From: Solirubrobacterales bacterium
GTDB lineage: Bacteria > Actinomycetota > Thermoleophilia > Solirubrobacterales > Thermoleophilaceae
NCBI GenBank assembly: GCA_012718975.1
Contig: JAAYBF010000128.1
Location: 1 to 32,455 of the forward strand
Reading direction: 5' to 3'
Length of the DNA stretch: 32,455 nt
A program made the position numbers and the translations under genes. The notes beneath the pieces are model-generated. The model saw only the letters and a program-made list of their open reading frames with translations. It ran no database searches and was not told where the DNA came from. Position 1 is the first letter of the stretch, and each line of letters opens with the position of its first letter. Below, in pieces: positions 6,816 through 10,451 of this stretch.

Positions 6816-6987
6816 GGATTGGGCCCGGCTGGGGTGGCGTTCCGCTCGGGGCGGGCGGGCGAGGGTCGTGGCGGGTCTCGTTCGGCTGGGTAGGGAGGCG
6901 AGCGGTCCGGAACGGCGCTTCGCCGGACCCTCGTCCCGTTGGCCGGGGCCGGCGAGGCATCGTCGCCGCTCCATCCATCGTCCCGGC

Positions 6988-7324
6988 CCGCCGTTCGCCG
7001 GTCTCGACCCGGCCGGCCCGCTGTTTCCAGGCGGTTTCAGGGTCCGTACATCATCTCCCGGCTATTCCTTGGCCTGTCCATCGTTTGCCGTGCATAGAGC
7101 GGCAAACGTCGGGCCGGGCGCGGGGGCGCTGGAGAAGGTCAGGTTTGCGCCGCGCGGACCGGAAACGTTGGACCGGCGCCGGGGCGGCCCGACAACGTCG
7201 GGTTGGGCGCGCGGGCGGGTCGGAAAACGCCGGACCAGTCGCGGGCAGGACCGGGCAAGATTCGTTCGGTGGCGGGAGCCGGCAAACGCCGGACCCGAAC
7301 CCCAAGGTTGAGCCGACGTTCCAG
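6988..7324 (-). repeat. Degenerate array with 30-bp period, core CCGACGTTYTCC
   Basis: On the minus strand seven successive 30-bp units (plus-strand starts 7101, 7131, 7161, 7191, 7221, 7251, 7281) each contain a 12-nt core resembling CCGACGTTYTCC next to about 18 nt of GC-rich, less conserved sequence. Examples on the plus strand are GGCAAACGTCGG (7101), GGAAACGTTGG (7161), GACAACGTCGG (7191), GGAAAACGCCGG (7222) and GGCAAACGCCGG (7281); 7131 and 7253 are degenerate. Cores in the opposite orientation flank it at 6988 (CCGCCGTTCGCC), 7017, 7078 (CCATCGTTTGCC) and 7313 (CCGACGTTCC). The same unit occurs twice, 30 bp apart, at 26271. Confidence 0.6.
7082..7108. repeat. Perfect 9-bp inverted repeat at the array junction
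   Basis: CGTTTGCCG (7082-7090) and CGGCAAACG (7100-7108) are exact reverse complements around a 9-nt loop. They form where plus-oriented and minus-oriented cores of the 30-bp array meet. Confidence 0.7.
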
Positions 7325-7515
7325 GCTCCCGCTCTCCCCCAAGGAGCGGCCGGCGCGTAGCGCCCCTCCACGTTGGCCTCCGCGGGTGGCGACGGTGTCG
7401 ACCTTCGCGCGCAGGCGAAGCGCGGAGCTACTCCCGAAGACACTTACACGGAAGCCGGCACCACGCCGATCGGGAGAGCGCTAAGCGAAGCCGAGCACGA
7501 AGGCTCGTCACCGGA

Positions 7516-7605
7516 GACAGGACCCGCGGGGAACAAGCGCCAGGACCCGCGGGCAACCAACGCCAGGACCCGCGGGCAACCAACGCCAGGACCCGCGCAA
7601 CCACC
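7516..7605 (+). repeat. 23-bp tandem repeat, about four copies
   Basis: Copies start at 7516, 7539, 7562 and 7585. Copies 2 and 3 (7539-7561, 7562-7584) are identical; copy 1 has a few substitutions and copy 4 lacks 2 nt. All share CAGGACCCGCG followed by an AAC-rich part. It lies 210 bp before mnmA. The period is not a multiple of three, so it is not a peptide repeat. Confidence 0.88.
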
Positions 7606-7801
7606 GCGAGAGGTGCTACGTTGACCCCAGCCCTGGCTTGTGCGCCAGTCGGTCCACATGTTGAGCCAACACCAACGGGATGGGCGTCCCACTCGGGCCG
7701 CGGCAGGCGTTTCGCCGCCAGCCGACGGTCCGGAGGATGCCCACGGTGCCAGATATCGGCCCAACCCGGTCACCGACAGCGGCAAGCCAGGGTTTACCCC
7801 G

Positions 7802-7807
7802 TAGAGT
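7802..7807 (+). promoter_or_regulatory. -10-like hexamer TAGAGT before mnmA
   Basis: TAGAGT ends 7 nt before ATG 7815, the distance expected for a transcript starting at the start codon. A GGAG lies only 3 nt from the ATG, too close for normal ribosome binding. It would drive the whole mnmA-sigma-lipoprotein operon. Confidence 0.45.
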
Positions 7808-7814
7808 GGAGCCG

Positions 7815-9302
7815 ATGCGTAGTTCGGAGGTGGCGGCGCAGGCCCTGATCGAGCAGCACCTGCGGCACCCGTACGGCCGGGGCCGGCTGGCGGACGCGCC
7901 GGCGACGGGGGCGGCGGGCGGTGCGGCGTGCGGCGATCTGGTGCGTCTGTCGCTGCGGCTGGACGGCGACCGGGTGGCCGCGACGGGCTTCGAGGCGGAG
8001 GGGTGCGCGGCGGTCCGGGCGGCGGGGAGCGCGGCAGCGGAGCTGGTGGACGGGATGCCGCTGCTGGCGGCGGCGCTGGTGTCGCCGGCGGTGATCTCGG
8101 AGGAACTGGGCGGTCTCGCGGCGAGCCACATGCATGCGGCGGAGCTGACCTGCGACGCGCTGCACCGGGCGCTGGGCGCGGCGGCGCGCGACGGCGAGGC
8201 GCGGCTGGCGCCTGCGGCGACCCGGACGCTGGTGGCGATGAGCGGCGGCGTCGACAGCGCGGCGGCGGCGCAGCTGGCGTTGGACGCCGGCGACGAGGTG
8301 GTGGCGGTGACGTTGGAGCTGTGGGCTGACTCGGCGGGCGACGGGGAGCAGAGCTGCTGCTCGCCGCAGGCGGTGCGTGGCGCGCGCGGGCTGGCGCAGC
8401 GGATGGGGCTGCCGCATTTCACGTTGGATCTGCGCGACCGTTTCCGCGCGGACGTGGTCGACGACTTCCTGGCGGGCTATGCGGGCGGCGCGACGCCGAA
8501 TCCGTGCGTGCGCTGCAACGGGCTGGTGCGCTTCGACGCGATGGTGGAGCTGGCGGACCGGCTGGGGGCGGCGCGGCTGGTGACCGGCCACTATGCCCGC
8601 ATCGACGAGGACGCGACCGGTCCGGTGATCCGGGCGGCGGTCGATCCGCGCAAGGACCAGAGCTATGCGCTGGCCCGGGTCGGGACGGACACGCTGCGGC
8701 GGCTGAGCTTCCCGCTGGGCGGCTACGCGAAGCCGGAGGTGCGCGAGCTGGCGCGCCGGGCGGGGCTGCCGGTGGCGGAGAAGCCGGAGAGTCAGGATCT
8801 GTGCTTCCTGGCGGGGACCGGCCGTGACGCGTTCGTGGCGCGTCATGGCGGCCCGGACGCGGAGCCGGGCGAGGGCGAGATCGTCGACGGGGAGGGCCGT
8901 GTGCTGGGCCGTCACGGCGGCCACCACCGCTTCACGGTCGGCCAGCGGCGCGGGATCGGCGTGGCGGGGCCGGAGCCGCTGTACGTGCTGGCCAAGGACG
9001 CGGCGAGCAACCGGGTGGTCGTCGGTCCGCGGGCGGCGCTCGCGACCGACCGGGTGGTCTGCGGCGCCGGGCGGCTGCACCGTCGCGCCGCCGAGGTCGA
9101 CGCGGTGCGGTTGCGCTACCAGGGCGCCGTCGTCGGCTGCCGGGTGGCCGGCGACCTGCCGGCGGGCGAGCATGACGGGCTGGCGCTGGAGCTCGAGCGT
9201 GCGGTGGCGGCGCCGGCTCCGGGCCAGGTGGCGTGCCTGCTGCGCGGTGAGCATGTGGTGGGTTGGGCGTTGATCGCGGAGCGGGAGGACGGCGGTGGCT
9301 GA
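7815..9302 (+). CDS. mnmA: NifU/IscU-like scaffold domain fused to MnmA tRNA-uridine 2-sulfurtransferase
   Basis: Residues 1-120 resemble an IscU/SufU scaffold: HPYGRGRL, ACGD (C39), FEAEGCA (C64), then SHMHAAELTCDALH. The third scaffold cysteine is displaced: alanine occupies its usual place after His and a cysteine (C113) stands five residues later. From 137 on the protein is MnmA: PP-loop SGGVDS (143-148), CCS (181-183), NPCVRCN (C231, C234), GHYARI, KDQSYAL and ESQDLCFL (C330). MnmA adds sulfur to U34 of tRNAs for Lys, Glu and Gln in the cytoplasm. The CxxC plus C330 set can bind a [4Fe-4S] cluster, as described for Fe-S dependent tRNA thiolases, so the fused scaffold plausibly supplies the cluster or sulfur. 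Start 7815 is set by the scaffold domain and the -10 box. The stop overlaps the next gene by 8 nt. Confidence 0.92.
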   Translation: MRSSEVAAQALIEQHLRHPYGRGRLADAPATGAAGGAACGDLVRLSLRLDGDRVAATGFEAEGCAAVRAAGSAAAELVDGMPLLAAALVSPAVISEELGGLAASHMHAAELTCDALHRALGAAARDGEARLAPAATRTLVAMSGGVDSAAAAQLALDAGDEVVAVTLELWADSAGDGEQSCCSPQAVRGARGLAQRMGLPHFTLDLRDRFRADVVDDFLAGYAGGATPNPCVRCNGLVRFDAMVELADRLGAARLVTGHYARIDEDATGPVIRAAVDPRKDQSYALARVGTDTLRRLSFPLGGYAKPEVRELARRAGLPVAEKPESQDLCFLAGTGRDAFVARHGGPDAEPGEGEIVDGEGRVLGRHGGHHRFTVGQRRGIGVAGPEPLYVLAKDAASNRVVVGPRAALATDRVVCGAGRLHRRAAEVDAVRLRYQGAVVGCRVAGDLPAGEHDGLALELERAVAAPAPGQVACLLRGEHVVGWALIAEREDGGG

Positions 9303-9693
9303 CGGAGCGGAGCGGATCGAGTTGAGCGTCCCGCTGGACGACGCGTTCGGCGGGGTGATCCGCCTGGTCGCGGGCGGGATCGCCGAGCAGGCGAGCTTCG
9401 GCTTCGAGGCGATGGACGACCTGCAGCTGGCGTTGGAGCGGCTGCTGGCCGAGACCGGCGAGCAGGAGCGCGTGGAGATCGCGTTCGAGATCGGCGACGA
9501 CGGCGTTCGGGCGCTGATCGGCCCGGTCGCGGAGGGACGATTGTCGACGGTGCTGGGCGAGCCGGACGGCGGGACGGGAACGTTGGGGCTGCGCCGGGTG
9601 CTGTCCGCGGTCGTCGACTCGTTCGGCGTCGAGCCCGCGGGCGACGGGCAGATCGTCGTGCGGCTGGAGAAGCTGGGAACCGCGCGCCTGTGA
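9295..9693 (+). CDS. RsbW/SpoIIAB-like anti-sigma factor, degenerate ATPase
   Basis: The 132-residue protein aligns with RsbW from GGVIRLVAGGIAEQASFGFEAMDDLQLALE on, the segment that builds the HATPase helix, and ends with GTLGLRRVLSAVVDSF, like the GGLGL lid region. RsbW proteins hold a SigB/F-type sigma factor and phosphorylate an antagonist (RsbV). Here the N-box asparagine position reads as Ala (ERLLAE instead of EAxTNA), and the G1 aspartate motif is replaced by GPVAEG, so kinase activity is doubtful although binding may remain. The next gene is exactly the expected sigma factor. GTG 9295 is preceded by GGGAGGAC and overlaps the mnmA stop, and its own stop overlaps the sigma gene. No RsbV homologue lies in the window. 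Confidence 0.8.
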   Translation: MADGAERIELSVPLDDAFGGVIRLVAGGIAEQASFGFEAMDDLQLALERLLAETGEQERVEIAFEIGDDGVRALIGPVAEGRLSTVLGEPDGGTGTLGLRRVLSAVVDSFGVEPAGDGQIVVRLEKLGTARL

Positions 9694-10451
9694 CGGGCGG
9701 CGAGAGGGACGGTCGGTCCGGGCGTCAGCGCGAGGACCGCGAGCTGCTGCGCCGCTACCGCGAGGACGGCGACACCGACGCGCGCGACCGGCTGATCGCG
9801 AGCCATCTGCCGCTGGTGCGGTCGCTGGCGCGCCGCTACGCAGGCCGGGGCGAGCCGTTGGAGGACATCGAGCAGGTCGGCGCGATCGGCTTGATCAAGG
9901 CGATCGACCGTTTCGACCTCTCGCGTGACGTGTCGCTGGCGACGTATGTGACGCCGAACGTGGTGGGGGAGATCAAGCGCCACTTCCGCGACAAGGGCTG
10001 GTCGATCCGGGTGCCGCGCTCGCTGCAGGAGCTGAGCGCGCGGATGTCTGCGACGATCGACGAGCTGACCGCGCGGCTGGGCCGCTCGCCGAGCGTGGCG
10101 GAGATCGCCGAGGCGCTCGGCACCTCGAAGGAGGAGGTGCTGGAGGCGATGGAGGTCGGCTCGGCGTACACGGCGCTGTCGCTGGACGCCGGCCCGGGCG
10201 GCGACGAGGACGGCACCGACCCGCTCGAGACGATTGGCGACGAGGACGCCGGGTTCGACCGCAGCGAGGACCGCGCGACGTTGGAGCCGGCGCTGGGGCG
10301 GCTGCCGGACCGCGAGCGCGAGATCCTGCGGATGCGCTTCGAGGAGGGGCTGCCGCAGACCCAGATCGCCGAGCGGGTCGGGCTGTCGCAGATGCACGTC
10401 TCGCGCCTGATCCGGCGTTCGCTGGCGACGATGCGGGAGGAGCTGGAGTGA
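9690..10451 (+). CDS. SigB/SigF/SigG-subfamily RNA polymerase sigma factor
   Basis: The 253-residue protein has regions 2 to 4 of group 3 sigma factors. Region 2 runs through LIASHLPLVRSLARRYAG, LEDIEQVGAIGLIKAIDRFD and ATYVTPNVVGEIKRHFRDKGW; SIRVPRSLQEL is the SigB/F signature. Region 3 holds ELTARLGRSPSVAEIAEALG, and region 4 ends in the helix-turn-helix TQIAERVGLSQMHVSRLIRR. It directs polymerase to a stress- or development-type regulon, probably restrained by the RsbW-like protein just upstream. GTG 9690 overlaps the anti-sigma stop in a GTGA. It differs from FliA/WhiG at the region 2-3 junction, so it is unlikely to read the GCCGATA promoter at 26380. Confidence 0.93.
   Translation: MTGGERDGRSGRQREDRELLRRYREDGDTDARDRLIASHLPLVRSLARRYAGRGEPLEDIEQVGAIGLIKAIDRFDLSRDVSLATYVTPNVVGEIKRHFRDKGWSIRVPRSLQELSARMSATIDELTARLGRSPSVAEIAEALGTSKEEVLEAMEVGSAYTALSLDAGPGGDEDGTDPLETIGDEDAGFDRSEDRATLEPALGRLPDREREILRMRFEEGLPQTQIAERVGLSQMHVSRLIRRSLATMREELE

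Follow-up and report, generated by a model that had tools for sequence, protein, structure and literature searches.

C-type MnmA, described by Shigi (reviewed in PMC11784392 and PMC8584467), carries a [4Fe-4S] cluster in Thermus (PMC8584467; PMC11784392), and for the enzyme of E. coli both the source of the sulfur and the chemistry involved, cluster or persulfide, are disputed (PMC11784392). The supply of sulfur to MnmA is the task of separate proteins in B. subtilis (YrvO) and in E. coli (the IscS-TusABCDE relay). Among scaffold-type proteins, human ISCU2 receives the persulfide on Cys138, the third scaffold Cys (PMC8617193), whereas SufU, the Zn-dependent persulfide acceptor of SufS, employs the Cys of its CGD motif, which is Cys40 in the Mtb protein, where zinc swaps partner to a His of SufS, and likewise the CGD Cys in B. 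subtilis (PMC10216065).

With MnmA of the Thermus thermophilus type the product of the gene described here has in common the complete PP-loop, CC-CxxC-C and tRNA-binding domains, and 2-thiolation of U34 would be expected of it, but an extra IscU-like domain is present at the N-terminus. This domain resembles IscU/NifU (e.g., A. fulgidus 4eb5_C) in fold and in the positions of CGD, GC and His, and its relatives show an iscS/mnmA operon origin; it differs in having Ala for the third Cys, in being fused and in occurring alongside a SufU. The acceptor Cys of SufU is kept, and the SufS of the genome is like the partner of B. subtilis SufU; however, the domain is NifU-like by score, lacks the third Cys and is covalently joined to the acceptor enzyme. 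Unlike YrvO-MnmA and the Tus relay, it is a fused domain, and neither TusA nor a dedicated IscS was found in this genome. A literature search, with most subscription papers outside its reach, returned no description of such a fusion. A donor-side domain joined to C-type MnmA, with relatives at the stages of operon, fusion and loss, makes both questions about MnmA testable in one polypeptide, and a NifU_N domain should not be equated with Fe-S scaffold function.

An IscU-fold domain and a complete MnmA in one chain

The window (the whole stretch of DNA that was analysed, 32,455 nucleotides) contains the following features, given with the basis for each assignment.

7815..9302, + strand: fused CDS, IscU/NifU-like domain plus MnmA, 495 aa (translation, Pfam, NCBIfam)
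7848..8177, + strand: IscU/NifU-like domain, residues 12-121 (Pfam NifU_N, PDB 4eb5_C, IscU fold of the model)
7929..7937, + strand: C39-G40-D41, CGD motif, C39 being the best-conserved scaffold residue (alignments)
8004..8006, + strand: C64, second scaffold Cys (kept in 44/52)
8133..8138, + strand: H107-A108, His retained and Ala in place of the third scaffold Cys (alignment against IscU 'HCS')
8151..8153, + strand: C113, private Cys, Ala in same-genus genome L006 (alignment)
8178..8222, + strand: linker, residues 122-136 (model confidence low around 130-132)
8223..8813, + strand: MnmA PP-loop (HUP) domain, residues 137-333, SGGVDS at 143-148 (PF03054, tRNA_Me_trans, 7e-62)
8355..8360, + strand: C181-C182, 'CC' of the C-type MnmA motif (invariant in alignment)
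8505..8516, + strand: C231-x-x-C234 (PNPCVRCN), putative catalytic or [4Fe-4S] Cys (alignment)
8802..8804, + strand: C330 (ESQDLCF), putative persulfide or cluster Cys, equivalent of E. coli C199 (alignment)
8868..9026, + strand: MnmA central (PRC-barrel) domain, residues 352-404 (PF20259, tRNA_Me_trans_M, 1.5e-16)
9105..9275, + strand: MnmA C-terminal beta-barrel, residues 431-487 (PF20258 below cut-off; TIGR00420 reaches residue 487)
9295..10451, + strand: RsbW-like anti-sigma factor, then SigB/F-type sigma factor (the first overlaps the fusion by 8 nt)

The 495-residue frame at 7815-9302 on the forward strand has no internal stops. Its N-terminal part (residues 12-121) is matched by Pfam NifU_N (E 7.5e-20, 71.8 bits against a cut-off of 22) and, in a phmmer comparison with the PDB that also returned MnmA, by A. 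fulgidus IscU (4eb5_C, 6e-17). The AlphaFold model of the full chain has a mean pLDDT of 87 and a pTM of 0.71, with residues 11-120 mostly above 85, and Foldseek matches it both to IscU structures (4eb5_C, TMt 0.81; 7c8o_A, TMt 0.91) and to MnmA structures (2hma and 2det, TMt 0.86). The alignment behind the model consists of separate NifU and MnmA homologue rows, none of them paired, with the domain of this protein itself in one copy, and for this reason the model does not inform on how the two domains lie relative to each other.

A complete MnmA spans residues 137-487 (Pfam, NCBIfam) and passes two MnmA equivalogs, NF001138 with 319 bits (cut-off 284) and TIGR00420 with 253 (cut-off 237). C181, C182, C231, C234 and C330 are invariant across 32 sequences of fused relatives, and the presence of CC, CxxC and C330 together places this half of the protein in the C-type.

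An IscU-like domain and a complete C-type MnmA in one chain thus constitute a genuine fusion, as an earlier note on this DNA had claimed from its letters. The NifU_N and tRNA_Me_trans domains that it expected were both matched, ACGD (C39), EGCA (C64), C231, C234 and C330 lie where it had placed them, the CxxC-type MnmA that it named has all five C-type Cys (181, 182, 231, 234 and 330), and the N-terminal part is predicted to adopt the IscU fold, the point on which it had considered itself open to refutation. A fusion made by a frameshift, its other concern, or by the assembly was rejected, since in about 80 of the 149 genomes sampled from the class both domains share a single frame, which rules out an assembly error; no frameshift was seen in the relatives checked, and those with two genes have nifU and mnmA adjacent after iscS. 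The fusion is also the only MnmA detected in its own genome, where the sole protein match is the fusion itself.

Spread, probable origin and losses of the fusion

In a sample of 149 genomes of the class, the survey suggested by the earlier note shows that about 80 (counted by hand from the match table) carry the fusion, aligning to the query across both domains. Within the families coded f1 to f10, of which f1 is that of the window, the gene is fused in f1-f5, f9, f10 and most of the f8 loci examined; nifU and mnmA are separate and adjacent in f6, f7 bears a shortened N-terminal remnant on MnmA, and at two f8 loci (L072 and L073) the N-terminal domain is entirely absent. At the level of the phylum, fusions predominate in f21, where three cases are unfused, and they also occur in f14, f53 and f71. 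A protein scan of contigs for named relatives gave partial ones only. Viral contigs in IMG/VR, 124-152 kb long, also bear MnmA homologues (L123, L147, L149, L153 and L156).

The order iscR-iscS-nifU-mnmA is found in f49 and at f6 locus L068, and iscS-nifU-mnmA at the remaining f6 loci and in f27 (iscR was checked in part of the loci); iscS followed by the fusion is seen in f10 and most of f21, and no iscS adjoins mnmA in f1-f5, f7, f8 and f9, of which f1-f5, f8 and f9 carry the fusion. The iscR-iscS-nifU-mnmA operon of the separate-gene relatives is the likely source of the fusion. Capture of a SufU as the source of the domain is less likely, given that NifU models score higher and that unfused relatives have nifU after iscS.

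A tree of the MnmA half (computed without L094) groups f1-f5 with f7 and f10 (SH-aLRT 96-97), f7 adjoining f10 (99), and nests the domain-less L072 and L073 within f8; from these positions, remnant and absence alike appear to be derived. The whole tree needs seven changes between fused-or-remnant and not, and is compatible with one or several fusions.

These losses lead to the idea that the domain is vestigial, a scaffold left jobless by the fusion and now decaying. Ligands were lost stepwise, f7 is truncated, L072 and L073 have no domain at all, and the fused domain is less conserved than MnmA, the opposite of f6. Nevertheless, the frame is open in about 80 genomes, C39 is universal in the complete domains of the class and selection on the domain appears similar to that on the MnmA half, so that this explanation is regarded as improbable. 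In ten informative close pairs, the Nei-Gojobori dN/dS of the domain is 0.07-0.5, and its ratio to the value for the MnmA half lies between 0.7 and 1.6; these values are rough, several dS being near saturation (an eleventh pair is nearly identical and uninformative), and suggest purifying selection about as strong as on MnmA. The separate NifU of f6 is more conserved than its MnmA (82 vs 62%). Among fused families MnmA is the better conserved part in every one but f10 (one pair compared), a reversal that fits a scaffold once shared and now an accessory domain.

The remnant of f7 (L055-L062), of approximately 60-80 aa, lacks the Cys part of the domain and still shows 56% mean identity and, in the one pair tested, a dN/dS of 0.19 indicative of purifying selection. 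This favours the notion of a docking or structural module devoid of sulfur chemistry, in which the IscU fold would recruit the desulfurase so that the persulfide goes straight to MnmA, or would aid tRNA binding or folding; direct transfer from desulfurase to MnmA is known for YrvO of B. subtilis (PMC5372745). Pure docking, however, does not demand C39, which all 52 complete fused domains of the class have, even those that have lost the metal site. We consider such a module rather unlikely, but it is the nearest rival to the persulfide relay proposed below.

Ligand sites and the proposed route of the sulfur

Five ligand positions were tabulated for the complete fused domains (n=52) of f1-f5, f8, f9 and f10, eight families of the class. 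C39 is present in 52/52, C64 in 44/52, D41 in 42/52, the His in 37/52 and the third Cys in 5/52. The 37 fused genes of f1-f5, the five nearest families, always keep C39, D41, C64 and H107, with Ala, Gly or Val for the third Cys; the third Cys is present in three of the five f8 and both f10 domains, which lack the His; and in f9 (n=8) C39 is the sole survivor of the metal site (8/8), D41 being replaced by A and C64 by S. The separate NifU of f6, f27 and f49 has the canonical C-D-C-H-C in 12/12. C39 is not invariant beyond the class: f71 has Asp at this position, and two of the three f14 rows lack the Cys. The pattern of f1-f5, third Cys lost, recurs in f21 in both fused (8) and unfused (3) domains, so such a loss needs no fusion. 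The unfused f21 NifU (L090, L091 and L092), beside iscS and mnmA, has in addition gained a Cys after GC (GCxxC).

In the protein of the window C39, D41, C64 and the His are present, and the scaffold set of three Cys and Asp (C-D-C-HC) is incomplete, the column of the third Cys being occupied by Ala108. The earlier note took C113 for a displaced third Cys, which does not hold: C113 is private to this gene and absent from the congener, and was rejected as a shifted third ligand. Its suggestion that the scaffold may be specialised is supported. Two curated models are not passed, NifU/IscU TIGR03419 (65 bits, cut-off 187.9) and SufU TIGR01994 (37 bits, cut-off 92.5).

C39 aligns as the equivalent of Mtb SufU Cys40. 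With the third Cys lost and the CGD Cys kept, the acceptor of IscU is gone and that of SufU retained in the fused domain. The explanation that we consider best, at somewhat under an even chance, is that a former IscU persists in cis to MnmA as a module for docking and for accepting persulfide, not as a general scaffold. The IscU/NifU of an iscS-nifU-mnmA operon would have become fused to MnmA and lost its general role in Fe-S assembly; the domain would dock on the cysteine desulfurase of the cell, most likely SufS in this genome; Cys39 would accept the persulfide, possibly gated by a metal on Asp41, Cys64 and His107; and the sulfur would be passed in cis to the active site of MnmA (C330, C231, C234 or the [4Fe-4S] cluster that these may hold), to be then added to the adenylated U34 of the tRNA. 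That the domain docks, that Cys39 is the acceptor and that the sulfur goes to MnmA we infer from conservation and gene content. The series from operon to iscS next to the fusion, and from there to a fusion with no adjacent iscS, counts in favour of this relay, as do the ligand pattern, the constraint on the domain and the gene content described below; the orientation of the domains in the model, which cannot be trusted (pTM 0.71, unpaired rows), counts against it.

A further possibility, the reading of the earlier note, is an in-cis Fe-S scaffold: the domain would assemble or carry a cluster and supply it to the [4Fe-4S] site of C-type MnmA. Such a site exists in Thermus (PMC8584467), and the remaining C39, D41, C64 and H107 might still bind a metal or a labile cluster, but the third Cys is lost in 47/52, f9 also lacks D41 and C64, C113 is private and a separate SufU exists, all of which leaves this possibility doubtful at best. 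Direct delivery of cluster or sulfur to U34 thiolation had been suggested: with C39 in 52/52 and the third Cys in 5/52, persulfide delivery fits the conservation better, and cluster delivery, the first reading, is the poorer fit, the third Cys being mostly missing and Cys39 standing alone in f9.

Sulfur supply and genomic neighbourhood

The genome has separate SufS and SufU genes on contig C64, in answer to the earlier note, which had asked whether a SufU was present; this SufU passes TIGR01994 (95.5 bits against 92.5). The SufS aligns well with that of B. subtilis, both having an HPHD stretch, whose distance from the active Cys is the same as for Mtb His354 (PMC10216065). TusA was sought in the genome with no match (controls positive 11/14), and at a threshold of E 1e-40 just 2 of the order's 33 genomes have an IscS-type match, in one case a DndA/SspA-like protein beside DndD, as do 2 of about 29 f7 genomes (hand counts); the assembly being approximately 94% complete, single absences are weak and the pattern across the order is stronger. 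Taken together, the lack of a TusA match, the rarity of IscS-type enzymes in the order and the likeness of the SufS to that of B. subtilis count for the persulfide relay. The other IscS-like enzyme of the genome, a DndA/SspA-like cysteine desulfurase (L076, contig C192:34623-35741), could be an alternative supplier of sulfur. L076 adjoins a DndD-like ORF, in what is likely a DNA phosphorothioation locus.

Docking on SufS is not a given, because the domain scores as NifU/IscU-like (TIGR03419 65 vs SufU 37 bits). In f8 and f9, iscS and nifU are located elsewhere in the genome, f5 has a more distant homologue, and NifU_N matches occur in 148/149 genomes of the class, fusions included. A simple link from loss of IscS to loss of the third Cys was rejected, since the unfused NifU of f21 has lost that Cys beside an iscS gene; the pattern does not go with the use of SufS. 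Nearly all f7 genomes have no IscS match either, and there the Cys part is gone and MnmA is kept, which shows that the domain has been dispensable over evolution. For the class as a whole it is proposed tentatively, with less confidence than the relay itself, that an Fe-S scaffold was made into an in-cis persulfide relay for U34 thiolation, that sulfur from SufS freed many members of a dedicated IscS and Tus proteins, and that some lineages may later have shed the metal site or the domain.

Genes aspS and alaS lie near most mnmA loci of the class, and rsbW and sigma genes follow mnmA also in most f8 and several f7 relatives. Elsewhere in the window, 1785-2678 encodes an FtcD-like formiminotransferase just below the NCBIfam cut-off (211 vs 221.25). 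Between aspS and the fusion there is about 1 kb (6816-7814) with no convincing gene and no match in an Rfam search, in which 16-24 nt repeats are scattered and a 23-nt unit is present in three tandem copies (7518-7597). The corresponding gap contains iscS and iscR in f6, and a secreted-looking ORF in some other relatives (for example L038 of f5; L045 and L046 of f8).
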